A stretch of DNA of 64,000 bases from Micromonospora sp. R77 (lineage in GTDB: Bacteria; Actinomycetota; Actinomycetes; Mycobacteriales; Micromonosporaceae): assembly GCF_022747945.1 (NCBI RefSeq), contig NZ_JALDST010000001.1, forward strand, positions 2,294,001-2,358,000, written 5' to 3'. Below, piece after piece: positions 1,870-58,300 of this stretch. Made by a program: the position numbers and the translations under genes. Position 1 is the first letter of the stretch. The number at the start of each line of letters is the position of its first letter. The notes below the pieces were generated by a model. The model searched no databases. It saw nothing but the letters and a program-made list of their open reading frames with translations, and was not told where the DNA came from.

Positions 1870-2288
1870 GGGAGCGAGAGTGGTCGCAAACGGCGATCGG
1901 GGCCAGCGAATTTCGCTGACCCCGACGGCGACGTTGGTCGGGAGGGACGATCGCACAACGCCTCCGGCGTTGGGTCGTAAGAACTTAGAAAGTCTCCGGC
2001 GAAACGCCCTCCCGCACGGAGCATCTTGCGCCGTCCGAATCCTGCCGTCAAGTCCTTACCGGCGGGTTTTTCACACTCACAGCGAAACGCCAGTTACCCC
2101 CTGATGCGCCCGATCCCCCCTTCGGGCGATCCCACCCTCCCCCACCCAGCCAGTCGCCCCCGCCTCCCTCGTCGATCATGGAGGCGTGGCGGGCGACAAA
2201 ACTCGCGAAAGCCGTCTCCCGGGCGCGACAAGTCCATGATCGACGCCGAGGGGGCGGGCGGGACGGGGCGGTGGGGGTGGGGGTGGGG
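1870..2288. other. Gene-free interval with a palindromic repeat
   Basis: About 420 bases between the acetyltransferase start and the stop codon of the ThrC-like gene. The part nearest the acetyltransferase should hold its promoter. A short GC hairpin (about 2106-2130, GCCCGA/TCGGGC arms) may end transcription of the ThrC-like gene. A 12-bp inverted repeat at 2171-2244 is listed separately. No credible coding frame was found, and in particular no small ThiS/MoaD-like gene next to the ThrC-like gene. Confidence 0.6.
2171..2244. repeat. Palindromic intergenic repeat, GATCATGG family, copy 1
   Basis: Perfect 12-bp inverted repeat, GTCGATCATGGA at 2171-2182 and TCCATGATCGAC at 2233-2244, separated by 50 bases. 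The outer GATCATGG/CCATGATC sequence resembles the ends of the element at 20471-20537, suggesting one dispersed family. It is intergenic, downstream of the ThrC-like gene. Confidence 0.65.
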
Positions 2289-3578
2289 TCAGGTGAGGAG
2301 GCCGGCGTCGCGGGCGGCGCGAAGGGAGGGCTTGATGCGGTGGGTGGGGCCGACCTCGGCGGCCACCGCGTCGAGGGTCTTGAGGCCCTCGCCGGTGTTG
2401 AAGACCACCGTCTCGGCGGCCGGGTCGAGCTTTCCGGACTCGACCAGCTTGCGCAGGACCGCCACGGTGACGCCGCCTGCGGTCTCCGCGAAGACCCCGG
2501 TGGTACGGGCCAGGTCACGGATGCCGGCGCGGATCTCGTCGTCGTCGGCGTACTCCATCCAGCCGCCAGTGCGGCGGACCGCCTCCAACGCGTAGAGGCC
2601 GGCGGCCGGGTCGCCGATGTTCAGCGACTTGGCGATGCCGGTGGGCTTGACCGGGGTGATGGTGTCGGTGTCCGCGTGCAGCGCGGTGGCGATCGGATTG
2701 CAGCCGGCCGACTGGGCGCCGAACACCTTCCAGCCACCGGCCGGCGCCTCGACCAGGCCGATCTCGACCAGCTCGGCGAACGCCTTGTCGATCTTCGTGA
2801 GCAGTTCGCCGGAGGCCATCGGGATCACCACCTGGGCGGGGATCCGCCAGCCGAGCTGCTCGGCCACCTCGTACCCGAGGGTCTTGGAGCCCTCCGCGTA
2901 GTAGGGCCGGACGTTGACGTTGACGAACGCGGTGTCCTCGAACTCGTCGGTCTCCACCAGCTCACCGCAGAGCCGGTTCACGTCGTCGTACGAGCCGTCG
3001 ATGGCGACCAGCTCGCCGCCGTAGACAGCGGTGGTGACGACCTTGCCCTGCTCCAGGTCGCTGGGGATGAAGACCACCGACGGGACGCCGGCCCGGGCGG
3101 CGTGTGCGGCGACCGAGTTGGCCAGGTTACCGGTGGAGGCACAGGCGTACCGGGTGAAACCGAGCGCCCGGGCGGCGGTCAGCGCCACCGAGACCACCCG
3201 GTCCTTGAACGAGTGGGTCGGGTTGGCACTGTCGTCCTTCACCCAGAGCGGACCGGTGAGGCCCAGCTCGGCGGCGAGGTTCGGGGCGGCGACCAGCGGG
3301 GTGAGGCCCGGGTCGACGGTCACCCGGGTGGCCGGGTCCTGGCCGGCCGGCAGCAGGGCCGCGTACCGCCAGATGCTGTTCGGGCCGGCCTCGATCTGGG
3401 CGCGGGTGACGGTGGCCAGGGCGGCGGTGTCGTAGTCGACCTCCAGCGGGCCGAAGCACTCGTAGCAGGCGTGCTGCGCGGCGAGCGGGTAGCGCGCCGA
3501 ACAGGCGCGACAGACCAGGGCACGGGCCGGGCTGAGGGTGGTGTCGATGCCGGTGGCGGCGGGAAGCGTCGACGTCAT
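2289..3578 (-). CDS. Threonine synthase-family PLP enzyme; possible O-phosphohomoserine-dependent homocysteine synthase
   Basis: A 429-residue fold-type II PLP enzyme of the ThrC family. The N-terminus has a zinc-ribbon-like pair, CRAC (about residues 23-26) and CYEC (about 38-41). The PLP lysine is in NPTHSFKDRV near residue 124, and the phosphate-binding region is TGNLANSVAAHAARAG. The standard reaction is O-phosphohomoserine to threonine. However, the usual actinobacterial ThrC of the hom-thrC-thrB operon is shorter (about 350 residues, from memory) and lacks this N-terminal module, and no hom or thrB is nearby. A SAM-I riboswitch ends 14 nt before the ATG, which points to methionine metabolism. 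I recall a ThrC homologue in Streptomyces (MetM) reported to make homocysteine from O-phosphohomoserine; this gene fits that idea but sequence alone cannot decide. Confidence 0.85.
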   Translation of the reverse strand: MTSTLPAATGIDTTLSPARALVCRACSARYPLAAQHACYECFGPLEVDYDTAALATVTRAQIEAGPNSIWRYAALLPAGQDPATRVTVDPGLTPLVAAPNLAAELGLTGPLWVKDDSANPTHSFKDRVVSVALTAARALGFTRYACASTGNLANSVAAHAARAGVPSVVFIPSDLEQGKVVTTAVYGGELVAIDGSYDDVNRLCGELVETDEFEDTAFVNVNVRPYYAEGSKTLGYEVAEQLGWRIPAQVVIPMASGELLTKIDKAFAELVEIGLVEAPAGGWKVFGAQSAGCNPIATALHADTDTITPVKPTGIAKSLNIGDPAAGLYALEAVRRTGGWMEYADDDEIRAGIRDLARTTGVFAETAGGVTVAVLRKLVESGKLDPAAETVVFNTGEGLKTLDAVAAEVGPTHRIKPSLRAARDAGLLT

Positions 3579-3592
3579 GTCGAGGAGGTCCT

Positions 3593-3720
3593 CTCATCTT
3601 TCCCCGCATCGCACCCTGCGACGGGGACGGAATTGGCACCTGCCCACGCGGCTCGTCGTCGAGCGTGCGGGTGGTTGCCGGGGCGTCGTCGGGCCGTATC
3701 CCTCAGCCCCTCTGGATGAG
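3593..3720 (-). promoter_or_regulatory. SAM-I (S-box) riboswitch controlling the ThrC-family gene
   Basis: On the minus strand the leader shows the S-box hallmarks in order: P1 left strand CTCATC (3720-3715), CAGAGGGGCTGAGGGA, GGCCC, GACGCCCCGGCAACC, GGTGCCAATTCC and a closing GGGGAAAGATGAG with P1 right strand at 3598-3593. The start codon (3578) follows within 14 nt and the AGAGGA ribosome binding site abuts P1. There is no room for a terminator, so control is probably translational. A possible -10 box TAGACT (minus strand, 3745-3740) would place transcription start just before the aptamer. Confidence 0.93.
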
Positions 3721-3864
3721 GTATTCAGTTGTACCGCCGAGTCTAAGCACTCCGTCCACCACCGCCACCCGCGGTTCCCACGCTGTGAGCCACCTGACCC
3801 GCACCGCGCACCCACCGGCCCGGAAGCCGCAGCACCGCTCACCGCGGTGCGGTGGGGTCGGGGG

Positions 3865-6678: not shown

Positions 6679-7578
6679 TCAGCTGGTGATGTCCTTGCGG
6701 GTGAAGCGCCAGAAGGCCAGCCCCCAGAACAGCGTGGCGTAGCTGACCGCCGAGATGGTGCCGCGCACCACGTCGTCGGTCTGCACCGGGGTGGAGAGCA
6801 ACCCCAGCCAGGCGCTGGCGTAGTGGGTCGGCAGGAAGGCGCGCAGCGCGCCCAGCGCGGTGATCTGGTCCAGGATGCTGGAGAGGATCCAGAGCAGCAC
6901 CGCACCGCCGACCGCGCCCAACGCGGCGTCCGTCGTCACCGAGAGCAGGAACGCCAGGCCGGCCACCACCAGGAGTACGACCGCCAGATAGCCGAGCACC
7001 GCCAGCAGCCGGAGCAGCCCGTCGGTCGGGGCCAGCTCGGCGGAGACCTGGCTGCGCAGCGGCGACCAGCCGTACCGGAGGGTGCCGGCGAGCAGGGCGG
7101 TGCCGGCGAGCAGCAGCAGCGCCAGCGCCGAGTACGCGAGCGCCACCACCAGCTTCACCGTGAGCAGCCGGGCCCGGGGCACCGGGACCGCCAGCAGGTA
7201 GCGCAGGCTGCCCCAGCTCGCCTCGCTGGCCACCGTGTCCCCGCAGAACAGCGCCACCACCACGACCAGCAGGAACGACGCCGACACGAAGATCGAGAAG
7301 AGGGTGAAGTTGAGCCCGCCCGAGGTGGCCAGGTCGACCAGGCTGGCGAACTCGTTGCGCCCGTTGTCGCCGTCGTTGCCCGAGTCGAACTGGAAGGCGA
7401 CCAGGATGATCAGCGGCAGCAGCACCATGAACCCGAGCGCCAACTGGGTACGCCGCCGCGACGCCTGCCGGCGGAACTCCGCCCGGAACGGCAGCGTCAC
7501 CGACGGCCGGTAGCCGACCGCCGCCCCACCCGGACCGACCGGGTCCGTCGTCGAGCCGACCGAAGAGCCCGCCATCAC
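6679..7578 (-). CDS. ABC transporter permease (ABC-2 type)
   Basis: A 299-residue membrane protein with about six hydrophobic segments and the common ABC-2 layout: cytoplasmic N-terminus with an FRRQASRRRTQLALG start, a large loop after the first membrane helix, and C-terminal RKDITS. Its ATG overlaps the TGA of the upstream ATPase-hydrolase fusion gene by four bases (7575-7578), implying translational coupling and a shared complex. The exported substrate is unknown. Confidence 0.85.
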   Translation of the reverse strand: MMAGSSVGSTTDPVGPGGAAVGYRPSVTLPFRAEFRRQASRRRTQLALGFMVLLPLIILVAFQFDSGNDGDNGRNEFASLVDLATSGGLNFTLFSIFVSASFLLVVVVALFCGDTVASEASWGSLRYLLAVPVPRARLLTVKLVVALAYSALALLLLAGTALLAGTLRYGWSPLRSQVSAELAPTDGLLRLLAVLGYLAVVLLVVAGLAFLLSVTTDAALGAVGGAVLLWILSSILDQITALGALRAFLPTHYASAWLGLLSTPVQTDDVVRGTISAVSYATLFWGLAFWRFTRKDITS

Positions 7579-10442
7579 CGGTCACCGCTTCCCCGAGAGT
7601 TCTCGCCCACCAGGGCGAGGAACGCGTCCTCCAGGCGGCGCCTCGGCACCACCCGGTCCACCCCGATGCCGGCCCGTACCAGCTCCGCCACCACGTCGCT
7701 GCGTGGCGTGCCGTTGGTGTCCACCACCAGGCCGCCGTCGCCGTCGGGCAGCACCCGGACGCCGTGCAGCCGGTCCAGCACCGTCCGGGCGGCGTCCGGG
7801 TCGGAGACCTCGAAGAGCACGCTCGGCGACTCACCGACGATCTCCTCGACCGGGCCGGACGCCACGATCCGCCCCTTGTTCACCACCACCGCGTGGGTGC
7901 AGGTCTGCTCCACCTCGGCCAGCAGGTGGCTGGAGACCAGCACCGCCCGGCCGTCGGTGGCGTACCGCTGGAGCACCCGGCGCATCTCGGCGATCTGCGG
8001 CGGGTCCAGGCCGTCCGTCGGCTCGTCCAGCACCAGCAGCTCGGGCAGGCCGAGCATGGCCTGGGCGATGGCCAGCCGCTGGCGCATGCCGTGGCTGTAG
8101 TTCTTCGTCCGCCGGTGCACCGAGTCGCCCAGACCGGCAATCTCCAGCGCCTGGTCGAAGTGCGCGTCGTCCCAGGGCCGCCCGGTCGCCCGCCAGTACG
8201 CCTTCAGGTTGTCCAGCCCGGACAGGTGCGGCAGGAAGCCCGGCCCCTCCACCAGCGCGCCGATCCGGGACAGCACCGGCGAGCCCGGCACCAGCCGGTG
8301 CCCGAAGACATAGATCTCCCCGGCCGTCGGCTGGGTCAGCCCCATCAGCACCCGCAGCGTGGTGGTCTTGCCGGCGCCGTTCGGGCCGAGCAGGCCCACC
8401 ACCTGACCGGGGTGCACCTCGAAGTCCACGTTCGAGACGGCGACGAAGCCGTCGGCGTACTCCTTGCGGAGTTGGCGGACCGCGAGCGGGATGCCCGCGT
8501 ACTCCGGGTGCACGGAGCTGTCCTGGCGGCCACGCCGGCGGCGGGCGAGCAGGACGACCACGACGAGCCCGACCGCGATCGCGGCGAGCAGCCCGACCAG
8601 CACCCAGCGCCAGACGGTGGCGGTGGTGGGGATCGGCTCGCCGTCGACCGTCGGCACGGTCAGCGGCCCGGCGGCGGCGACCGTGTAGACGGCCGGCTCG
8701 GCGGGGCCGGCGTACGCCTGGTCGGCGGTGGCCACCACGATTCGCAGCCGGTGCCCGGCCTCGACCCGGCGGACGATCGCCGGCAGGGTCACCGTGACCG
8801 GCTGGGCGGCGTCGACGGTCCTCGGCAGGCCGGTCAGCCGGACCGGCGCGACCAGGCCGTCGGGGAGCGTGGCGGCGCCCTGCGGGTCGACGTCGTAGAG
8901 CTTGACGAAGAGCACCGCCTCGCCGGTCGCCGACGCGGCGCGGAGCCGGACCGTCGGGGAGCCCACCACGTCGACCGCGTCGTCCAGCGGCGCGGACTCG
9001 AAGCGGGCGTGCTGGCCGGGGATGTCGCCGGCCACCCCGTCGAGCAGCGAGCCGAGCGCCCCGGCGAAGGGCACCGACGAGATGGCCGCCGGGTTGCCGT
9101 TGGGCGGGTTCGCGATCGCCTGGCCCGGGCCGGTCACCTCGACCTCGCGCCGGGTGTCCCCGTCGACGCCGGGATAGTCGGCGGTGCGGTAGCCGGTGGC
9201 GACCAGGCCCCGGTCGAGCGCGTCGAAGCCGGCGATCCGGGAGAAGGTGAACCCGTCGCCGGGTGCCGGGCCGTCGCCCTTGACGTAGTGGTCGAGCCAC
9301 TGCGCGGTCAGGAACTTCACCCGGTCGGAGTCGGAGGTCGGGCCCGAGCCGCCGTCGTGGCCGCCGGTGAACCAGGCGACCCGCACCGGCGTACCGGCGG
9401 CGGCGATGCCCCGGGCGTTGGCGTCCGCCTCGGCGAGCGGGAAGAGGGTGTCGGCCTCCCCCTGCACCAGCAGGGTGGGCGCCTTGATCCGGTCCAGCAC
9501 GCCGGCCGGCGACGAACGGCGCAGCAGGTCCACCGCCGCCTGGTCGGCCCGTCCGGTGGTGGCGATCCGCAGGTAGGCGGCGCAGACGTCGGCGGCGAAC
9601 CGGCCGCAGGACGGGTCGGCGGCGCCACCGGGGGCGCGGCCGGAGCCGGTGCCGGGGCCCCCGCCGGGCCGGGGGCTGGGCGGGCCGGCCGACGCCGGGG
9701 CGCCCTCCGGCTGACCGGCCGTGCCGCCGGAGACGCCGGCCGGACCGGAGCCGGCGCTGCCGCCGCCCCCGAAGAAGATCCCGGCCCAGCCCTTCTTGAA
9801 CACGCCCTCGGTGGGCGGCTTCCCGGTGCTCTCCGGCAGGAAGGCCCGGGAGAGGTCGTTCCAGGTGATCATCGGGACGATCGCGTCGACCCGGGGGTCC
9901 TGGGCGGCGAGCAGCAGGGCCAGGCCACCGCCGTACGAGCCGCCGACCACACCGACCCGGGGGTCACCGGCGGCGTCGGTGCGGATGTCCGGGCGGGCGG
10001 CCAGCCGGTCGAGCAGGCGCTGGGCGTCCCGTACCTCGTAGTCGGGGTTGTCCAGGTGGATCTCGCCGCCGCTGCGGCCGAAGCCCCGGGCGGTCCAGGT
10101 CAGCACCGCGTAGCCGCGCTCGACCAGGTCCTCCGCGTCGGGACGGACCGACTCCTTGGTGCCGCCGAAGCCGTGCGCCAGCAGCACCGCGGGCACCTTG
10201 CGCGTGGCCGAGGCGTCCGCCGGCAGATAGAGCGTGGTGTCCAGGTCGACCGGCTGGTCGCCGGCCGGTCCGGAGCGCACGGTCACCGTCGCCGACTCGG
10301 TCCGGAAGACCGGCGGTCCGGACCGGGCCGCCCAGAACACGCCGGCGGCGGCCAGACCGAGCACGACCGCCGCGGCGACGACACGGCGTCGGCGGGTGGC
10401 GAGGGCACGCCGGACCCGCGCGGTCGGCAGCGGTGATCTCAT
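7575..10442 (-). CDS. Fusion of extracellular X-Pro-peptidase-like alpha/beta hydrolase with ABC transporter ATPase
   Basis: A 955-residue chimera. A membrane anchor at about residues 20-40 precedes an alpha/beta hydrolase of the CocE/X-prolyl dipeptidyl-peptidase type: oxyanion region AHGFGG, nucleophile elbow GGSYGGG, acid in GEADTLFP, histidine in GGHDGG. A Gly/Pro-rich insertion sits near residues 230-280 and a beta-rich C-terminal domain follows. A second membrane helix (about 605-630, TVWRWVLVGLL) leads to an ABC ATPase with GPNGAGKTT, signature YSHGMRQRLAIAQA, LLVLDEPTDGLDP and the switch histidine in VLVSSHLL. The predicted topology puts the hydrolase outside and the ATPase inside. 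ATG at 10442 (MRSPLPTARVRR) is chosen because it begins just before the basic residues of the anchor. Confidence 0.88.
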   Translation of the reverse strand: MRSPLPTARVRRALATRRRRVVAAAVVLGLAAAGVFWAARSGPPVFRTESATVTVRSGPAGDQPVDLDTTLYLPADASATRKVPAVLLAHGFGGTKESVRPDAEDLVERGYAVLTWTARGFGRSGGEIHLDNPDYEVRDAQRLLDRLAARPDIRTDAAGDPRVGVVGGSYGGGLALLLAAQDPRVDAIVPMITWNDLSRAFLPESTGKPPTEGVFKKGWAGIFFGGGGSAGSGPAGVSGGTAGQPEGAPASAGPPSPRPGGGPGTGSGRAPGGAADPSCGRFAADVCAAYLRIATTGRADQAAVDLLRRSSPAGVLDRIKAPTLLVQGEADTLFPLAEADANARGIAAAGTPVRVAWFTGGHDGGSGPTSDSDRVKFLTAQWLDHYVKGDGPAPGDGFTFSRIAGFDALDRGLVATGYRTADYPGVDGDTRREVEVTGPGQAIANPPNGNPAAISSVPFAGALGSLLDGVAGDIPGQHARFESAPLDDAVDVVGSPTVRLRAASATGEAVLFVKLYDVDPQGAATLPDGLVAPVRLTGLPRTVDAAQPVTVTLPAIVRRVEAGHRLRIVVATADQAYAGPAEPAVYTVAAAGPLTVPTVDGEPIPTTATVWRWVLVGLLAAIAVGLVVVVLLARRRRGRQDSSVHPEYAGIPLAVRQLRKEYADGFVAVSNVDFEVHPGQVVGLLGPNGAGKTTTLRVLMGLTQPTAGEIYVFGHRLVPGSPVLSRIGALVEGPGFLPHLSGLDNLKAYWRATGRPWDDAHFDQALEIAGLGDSVHRRTKNYSHGMRQRLAIAQAMLGLPELLVLDEPTDGLDPPQIAEMRRVLQRYATDGRAVLVSSHLLAEVEQTCTHAVVVNKGRIVASGPVEEIVGESPSVLFEVSDPDAARTVLDRLHGVRVLPDGDGGLVVDTNGTPRSDVVAELVRAGIGVDRVVPRRRLEDAFLALVGENSRGSGDR

Positions 10443-10817
10443 GGCGCACACGGTACGGCGCGGAACCTGAGCATTACCTGAGATCCGCCGTACGTCCGTC
10501 CGGTAGCGCCGATCGGTGTCCGAGTCCGATCGACCGCGCAGCGTCCAGCACATCCCAGCGGGATGAATTCGGATCACGTGAATTCACATCTACGTTCGCA
10601 AACCGTAATCGATGCCGCCATACGACTGCCCAACGGAACGCACGGTGCCGGCCCGGTGAACACCGTGTGACACCGCCCGAAGTGACGCGAAGCCGACTGA
10701 GCGACGGCGCTCCCACCGGCGCGCGGTTCGGTTAGTTTCCGGTCCGGTGTACGGGACCACCGCGGCGACCCCGCCCACCCACCCAGAATCCCCCGCCGTC
10801 GCCGGAGGAGACCGATC
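10443..10817. other. Divergent intergenic region between the hydrolase-ABC gene and the conservon-like operon
   Basis: About 375 bases carrying both promoters. It contains an inverted repeat TGAATTC-N9-GAATTCA at 10564-10586, a possible operator. A weak -10-like TTAGTTT lies near 10732 ahead of the plus-strand operon. No coding frame is convincing. Confidence 0.5.
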
Positions 10818-57860: not shown

Positions 57861-57937
57861 TGGAGCCCCCGGCCGGGATCGAACCGGCGACATCTCGCTT
57901 ACAAGGCGAGTGCTCTGGCCAGCTGAGCTACAGGGGC
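57861..57937 (-). tRNA. tRNA-Thr (anticodon UGU)
   Basis: On the minus strand a full cloverleaf: acceptor GCCCCTG pairing with CGGGGGC, D arm with AGCTCAGCTGG, anticodon loop CTTGTAA giving TGT, and T arm CCGGTTCGATCCCGG. CCA is encoded (57863-57861). It reads ACA threonine codons. Confidence 0.95.
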
Positions 57938-58300
57938 GTGCGGCGTCGAGGTCAGCATAGCGACTGACGTCCGGATTTCCCGCTCGGCAGGGGTCCCGAG
58001 CACGGGAAACGTCAATTTACCGACCCCGTACAGCCCTTCCGGCGCCGGGAGCGGCGGGTGGGCGTGGGGATTGATGCCCGGGAGTGCCCGGCTGACCGAA
58101 ATGCGTATGCCGTCCGTCCCACCCCATGCTCCCCGTCTTGGCAGGTACGCAAAACCCGTTTACCGTGCAGTGACACGGACGACACTCCGGCCGGCCTCGG
58201 CTGCCCGGGTGCCGCCCGCCTGGCCGGCACCACGGGTGCCGGTCGCTCCTTCACTCGGATCGTCCGGCACGTTCCTGCCGGTGAAAGGAAGCGCTCCAGC
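57938..58300. other. Intergenic control region upstream of msiK
   Basis: About 360 bases without a credible gene. It contains GGTACGCAAAACCC at 58144-58157, identical to a site at 32032-32045 ahead of the amino-sugar operon, and a LacI-type operator-like sequence at 58287-58298. The part next to the tRNA should hold the tRNA promoter on the minus strand. Confidence 0.6.
58287..58298. promoter_or_regulatory. LacI/CebR-like operator overlapping the msiK ribosome binding site
   Basis: GGAAGCGCTCCA matches the AGCGCT-centred palindrome used by CebR and other LacI-family sugar regulators in actinobacteria. It overlaps the AAAGGAAG ribosome binding site of msiK. Prediction only. Confidence 0.4.

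Follow-up and report, generated by a model that had tools for sequence, protein, structure and literature searches.

A gene that databases call threonine synthase lies behind a SAM-I riboswitch in the window, the 64,000-nucleotide stretch of Micromonospora sp. R77 DNA analysed here, raising the questions of whether its product serves threonine or methionine synthesis and of where the sulfur for methionine would come from. We put the probability at roughly four in five that this gene, metM, makes homocysteine under SAM-switched translation, with CysO as the most likely sulfur carrier and a dedicated MetO missing; this reading is built on sequence comparisons. The pairing of MetM with a SAM riboswitch has been described before, and what is new is the missing cognate carrier in Micromonosporaceae; a literature search did not find the lack of MetO across the family, with CysO as the likely shared donor, in print.

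The metM gene and its predicted SAM-responsive leader

The metM ORF runs from 3578 to 2289 on the minus strand (2289..3578), begins with ATG and encodes a ThrC-like PLP enzyme of 429 aa, a proposed O-phosphohomoserine-dependent homocysteine synthase according to profile matches, tree position, signature residues and fold. PALP is its sole Pfam domain. The protein scored 242.2 bits against NCBIfam TIGR00260 (thrC; cut-off 167.1) and 276 bits against PRK08197, under the cut-off of 303, indicating that TIGR00260, whose cut-off MetM passes, does not separate MetM from ThrC. The relatives that carry a name among 120 listed of 8000 are all called threonine synthase, and the closest named-genome relatives (among the best 80 of 470 relatives) are 96% identical to the window protein, with M. 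chalcea first. The N-terminal CxxC-x11-CxxC motif (residues 23-41; codons at 3456..3512, minus strand) is complete, with Cys 23, 26, 38 and 41; it resembles a zinc ribbon and may bind metal, and a CxxC pair of this kind occurred in 176 of 176 MetM loci examined. The ThrC-like enzyme with an N-terminal CxxC pair described in the initial annotation was thus recovered, and, as also stated there, the genes next to metM in the window include no recognizable hom, thrB or ThiS/MoaD. Elsewhere in the window, a 1000-aa ORF (7575-10577, minus strand) fuses an X-Pro dipeptidyl-peptidase-like hydrolase (S15, PepX_C) to an ABC-transporter ATPase domain, and an msiK RNA motif (RF01747, 51.5 bits) was found at 58238-58296 (plus strand), with a tRNA-Thr nearby at 57861-57937.

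Upstream of metM, RF00162 matched 3722-3591 on the minus strand (3591..3722) with 72.8 bits (gathering score 44.4, E 4e-15) over model positions 1-108 of 108, and the core motifs and P1-P4 were present, indicating that the SAM-I (S-box) aptamer is complete, as had been claimed. In a genome-wide RF00162 search at E 0.001 (343 candidates, 150 scored), it was the only SAM-I match. Model R1, which was built from 38 aptamers with the window sequence among its training set, scored the window aptamer at 112.4 bits, and at least one both-sided pair-keeping change was observed in 11 of the 26 predicted pairs of the aptamer in alignment A2 (38 sequences). To see the aptamer in other genomes of the class, we used 40 stretches hand-picked across class families, of which one without metM was dropped. 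RF00162 was found near the metM 5' end, on the metM strand, in all 39 remaining loci, although two scores were weak and near gathering (L153, 47.0 bits; L154, 49.1 bits). Of the 80 named Micromonosporaceae loci, which are the best of 470 relatives, 79 likewise gave an R1 match to the aptamer, as did the window; the contig of the 80th, L102, begins inside the gene. This recurrence upstream of metM orthologues across genomes indicates that the window match is not due to chance. The window gene thus has an upstream SAM riboswitch, as stated for S. albulus metM in an excerpt of PMC12172450. Note that a c-di-AMP riboswitch (1885-2061, plus strand of L171) flanks one of the metM loci.

A gap of 12 nt (3579-3590) separates the aptamer end from the metM start codon, which corrects the 14 nt given initially. 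The distance from aptamer end to the nearest upstream in-frame start was 6-18 nt in 36 of the 39 loci, the exceptions being L152 (0), L154 (205, partial match) and L164 (no start found). A gap of 6-18 nt leaves no room for a terminator, and the short distance argues for control at translation. P1 consists of six pairs, its 3' strand (3593-3598) pairing with 3715-3720, and the first three bases of a Shine-Dalgarno (SD)-like GAGAGG (3595-3590; 3590..3595, minus strand) are the end of this strand. The SD-like element, presumably a ribosome-binding site, was recognized from the sequence, alignment pairs, an anti-SD duplex scan and folding. The proposed contact of P1 with the ribosome-binding site was therefore borne out as an overlap of three bases, but folding of the window leader counts against the SD-blocking model: the predicted accessibility of the SD did not clearly change, most of its stretch being base-paired whether P1 was present or not, and a clean two-state switch was not seen. 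We infer that SAM controls metM at the translational level.

MetM among the ThrC-like proteins of the genome

PALP matched 13 proteins of the genome, 11 with scores above the cut-off, and three are ThrC-like: L006, L007 and MetM. L006 is a canonical ThrC without the cysteine motif, and its gene adjoins a homoserine dehydrogenase gene and lysA, so that metM is not the only thrC in the genome. A second thrC in a hom-thrC-thrB operon, as had been suggested, was accordingly found as regards hom, but visual inspection of the ORFs read next to L006 revealed no thrB. The third paralogue, L007 (C1:4038657-4039577), carries a cysteine motif and scored 596 bits against PRK08197 (called threonine synthase); it reads TNGN for STGN and SFKARG for SFKDRG.

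In the tree, the window MetM clustered with a further 43 MetM rows, and the 11 ThrC rows, among them five threonine synthases of solved structure, lay apart with a support of 100/99. The MetM rows are riboswitch-led ThrC homologues that include metO-linked ones, none labelled MetM by its authors. The window protein thus falls on the MetM side of the ThrC/MetM tree, apart from proven threonine synthases, and it also lacks the Thr of the STGNT loop. In Thermus numbering, MetM has Leu for Thr88 (Leu152, codon 3123..3125, minus strand), His for Gly58 and Val for Gly64, and the Thr88 position was Leu in 176 of 176 MetM loci versus Thr in 119 of 120 canonical ThrC.

The methionine route and the sulfur carrier

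MetX (TIGR01392) was not found in the genome at E 0.001, nor was homoserine succinyltransferase (HTS, PF04204) at 1e-5, suggesting that the SAM-guarded metM fills the resulting gap in the methionine pathway. MetM is therefore the likely route to homocysteine in this genome. Taken with the clade support of 100/99 and the canonical ThrC encoded elsewhere, these absences favour the initial proposal that the protein is a methionine-pathway enzyme of the MetM type rather than a threonine synthase, as far as sequence can tell.

Among 296 genomes of the class, with thresholds of E <1e-60 for MetM and of at most 1e-30 for MetX (a few MetX matches being weak), 98 had MetM without MetX, 101 had MetX without MetM, 93 had both and 4 had neither (G010, G069, G071 and G250). 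The contrast gave a Fisher p of 3.5e-19, a statistic that ignores relatedness. MetM and MetX thus tend to replace each other across the class, although the 93 of 296 genomes with both count against replacement. In 81 Micromonosporaceae genomes, MetM was present in 80 (E up to 1e-100), MetX in 24 (two of them weak) and HTS in 1, and 56 of the 81 had MetM without MetX and without HTS. These MetM-only genomes fit the gap stated for Streptomyces coelicolor, which an excerpt of PMC11356490 describes as being without metA and metXY.

We then considered the carrier. In 31 of the 39 hand-picked actinobacterial loci, metM was directly followed by a co-oriented MetO-like ORF, the eight without it being L152, L153, L154, L161, L168, L169, L177 and L181. 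No metO follows metM directly in the window, which therefore lacks the two-gene MetM/MetO unit. No metO was found near metM in the named Micromonosporaceae loci either (80 loci, the best of 470 relatives; best E 0.03), of which L046, L054, L056 and L068 extend less than 120 bases downstream of metM, or in any of 30 Micromonosporaceae loci, our own genome included, cut with about 1.5 kb downstream. All 25 loci of family f17, which has the next closest MetM, likewise lacked metO within 42 to 1501 bases downstream; three of the genomes concerned (G034, G085 and G095) also supplied loci to the eight without metO among the 39. Since f17 also lacks metO, the fraction of 31 in 39 depends on the families sampled.

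A search with a CysO and MetO alignment in 30 chosen genomes gave two matches in 18 genomes, a single match in 10 and no match in 2, the second match being weak in 4 of the 18 (G095, G261, G012 and G073). Among the genomes whose metM surroundings were read, a single match together with a MetM without adjacent metO was found in our own genome, two other Micromonospora, G227, G085, G034 and G015; G008, outside this set, also had a single match. In a carrier tree, metM-adjacent (31) and cysM-adjacent (42) proteins formed two groups (100/98). The sole CysO/MetO-type match of our genome at 1e-6 fell in the CysO group, and a MetO-clade carrier was not found genome-wide at this threshold. Its gene (C1:4055572-4055922) lies between a JAB-domain protease gene and cysM, forming a mec-cysO-cysM cluster. 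This gene order is that of the mycobacterial pathway. In that pathway, as outlined in an excerpt of PMC3227635, CysO receives its sulfur from MoeZR, O-phosphoserine is the substrate of CysM, and Mec releases the cysteine. Three proteins of our genome were above the Pfam ThiS cut-off, namely CysO, ThiS and a MoaD-like protein, and none of them is encoded beside metM.

A strong CysO match (130 bits or more) was present in 80 of the 81 Micromonosporaceae genomes, and G321, without CysO (1e-6) and without MetM (1e-100), was the sole exception for both. Many other Micromonosporaceae genera, and one of five Micromonospora, had a second, weaker carrier match, so that the one-carrier claim is firm only for single-match genomes. 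Compared with six MetO proteins, our own CysO shows 49-57% identity. It has 26 residues beyond GG, with a tail that varies between relatives, so that trimming would be needed, which counts against its use as the carrier. Many Micromonosporaceae CysO ORFs (L199-L201, L218-L244) extend beyond GG, often with AFGFAAAAA and a variable end, and CysO in this family may be made as a precursor requiring trimming. Note that L213 and L215 of family f17 have a tandem second VTILPAVAGG copy at the CysO C-terminus.

Proposed mechanism, alternatives and known systems

In the proposed mechanism, MetM would convert O-phosphohomoserine, an intermediate common with threonine synthesis, directly to homocysteine, with a small carrier protein providing the sulfur as a thiocarboxylate at its C-terminus. 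At high SAM levels, the ligand would bind the S-box, P1 would form, the overlapping ribosome-binding site would be blocked and MetM would not be made; at low levels, metM translation would resume. Both the substrate and the sulfur donor are deduced from likeness to related systems. CysO as the carrier would serve cysteine as well as homocysteine synthesis in this genome, possibly through a CysO-homocysteine adduct cut by Mec, by analogy with cysteine, and SAM would switch off the translation of metM only. Extending this, we lean slightly towards the view that MetO was lost in Micromonosporaceae, and probably in related lineages, so that CysO feeds CysM and MetM, cysteine and methionine synthesis draw competitively on a single pool of protein-bound sulfur, and SAM switches the methionine branch alone.

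A MetM acting as proposed might instead, with appreciably lower probability, draw on free sulfide or on another carrier, such as the 81-aa MoaD-like protein (G000:C1:2692766) or ThiS. The three ThiS-superfamily proteins above the Pfam cut-off, the second weaker carrier match in many other Micromonosporaceae genomes and the 26 residues after GG in CysO would all suit such a source. However, the CysO/MetO alignment at 1e-6 matched neither ThiS nor the MoaD-like protein, CysO is the only carrier of the CysO/MetO type in four of five Micromonospora genomes, its identity to MetO proteins is 49-57%, and MetM and CysO are absent together in G321. It is improbable that homocysteine arises mainly via cystathionine, with MetM in a minor role. 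Plant cystathionine gamma-synthase (CGS) uses O-phosphohomoserine, and the CGS-like L020, which scored 659 bits against PRK07811 cystathionine gamma-synthase (cut-off 513), might do the same; against this, some 13 kb separate L020 from a gene encoding PALP and CBS domains, which would suit reverse transsulfuration, the sole SAM-I riboswitch found guards metM, and MetM is kept in 80 of 81 Micromonosporaceae genomes.

As for the enzyme itself, the NCBIfam name and the activities reported for a cyanobacterial homologue count against the MetM reading. According to an excerpt of PMC12172450, the Microcystis protein, 51.6% identical to S. albulus MetM and adjoined by a MetO-like gene, had threonine synthase and deaminase activity in vitro and, in the view of its authors, does not fully fulfil the MetM function in cells. 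A second true threonine synthase, its expression set by SAM, for example to divert O-phosphohomoserine, would agree with the TIGR00260 match and with threonine synthases being the best solved relatives and the best folds. It is nevertheless very unlikely, given the canonical ThrC beside hom, the separate clade with changed neighbours of the PLP lysine, the carrier gene after MetM orthologues in 31 of 39 loci and the lack of a clear logic in SAM shutting threonine synthesis. We regard as scarcely credible that MetM is mainly a threonine or O-phosphohomoserine deaminase, as the moonlighting Microcystis enzyme (PMC12172450, excerpt) and the fold common to threonine deaminases might suggest, because both the riboswitch and the way MetM and MetX replace each other indicate a role in methionine synthesis, and other PALP genes (L002, L003 and L005) resemble IlvA by eye.

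A homocysteine-forming MetM could explain methionine synthesis without MetX or MetA in a large antibiotic-producing family (56 of 81 genomes), and it calls the database name threonine synthase for MetM relatives into question. The locus also offers a short test case for carrier sharing, with one carrier and two enzymes, one of them under SAM control.

Among the closest known systems is that of Streptomyces albulus, in which MetM and MetO were reportedly described by Hasebe et al. in 2024 (AEM 90:e01247-24). Both cases have a ThrC-like enzyme with a SAM riboswitch upstream, and the window MetM shares a clade with its orthologues from family f18 genomes, presumably Streptomyces, at about 60% identity; here, in contrast, no metO stands beside metM and no MetO-clade carrier was found, only CysO. 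With ThrC (2d1f, 1uim, 2zsj, 6cgq and 1e5x), MetM has in common the PLP fold, the SFKDR lysine and probably the substrate, but it differs in Leu/His/Val for Thr88/Gly58/Gly64, the CxxC motif and its separate clade. In Wolinella, HcyS-dependent methionine synthesis uses a carrier thiocarboxylate as the sulfur source for homocysteine, with O-acetylhomoserine and a MetY-type enzyme; the type of sulfur donor would be common with the proposed MetM reaction, whereas the substrate and the enzyme differ. The CysM/CysO/Mec system of Mycobacterium, as given in an excerpt of PMC3227635, likewise combines a PLP enzyme, a phosphorylated amino acid and a carrier thiocarboxylate as sulfur donor, and the same carrier is proposed here, but the proposed product of MetM is homocysteine, not cysteine, and MetM is ThrC-like, not CysM-like.
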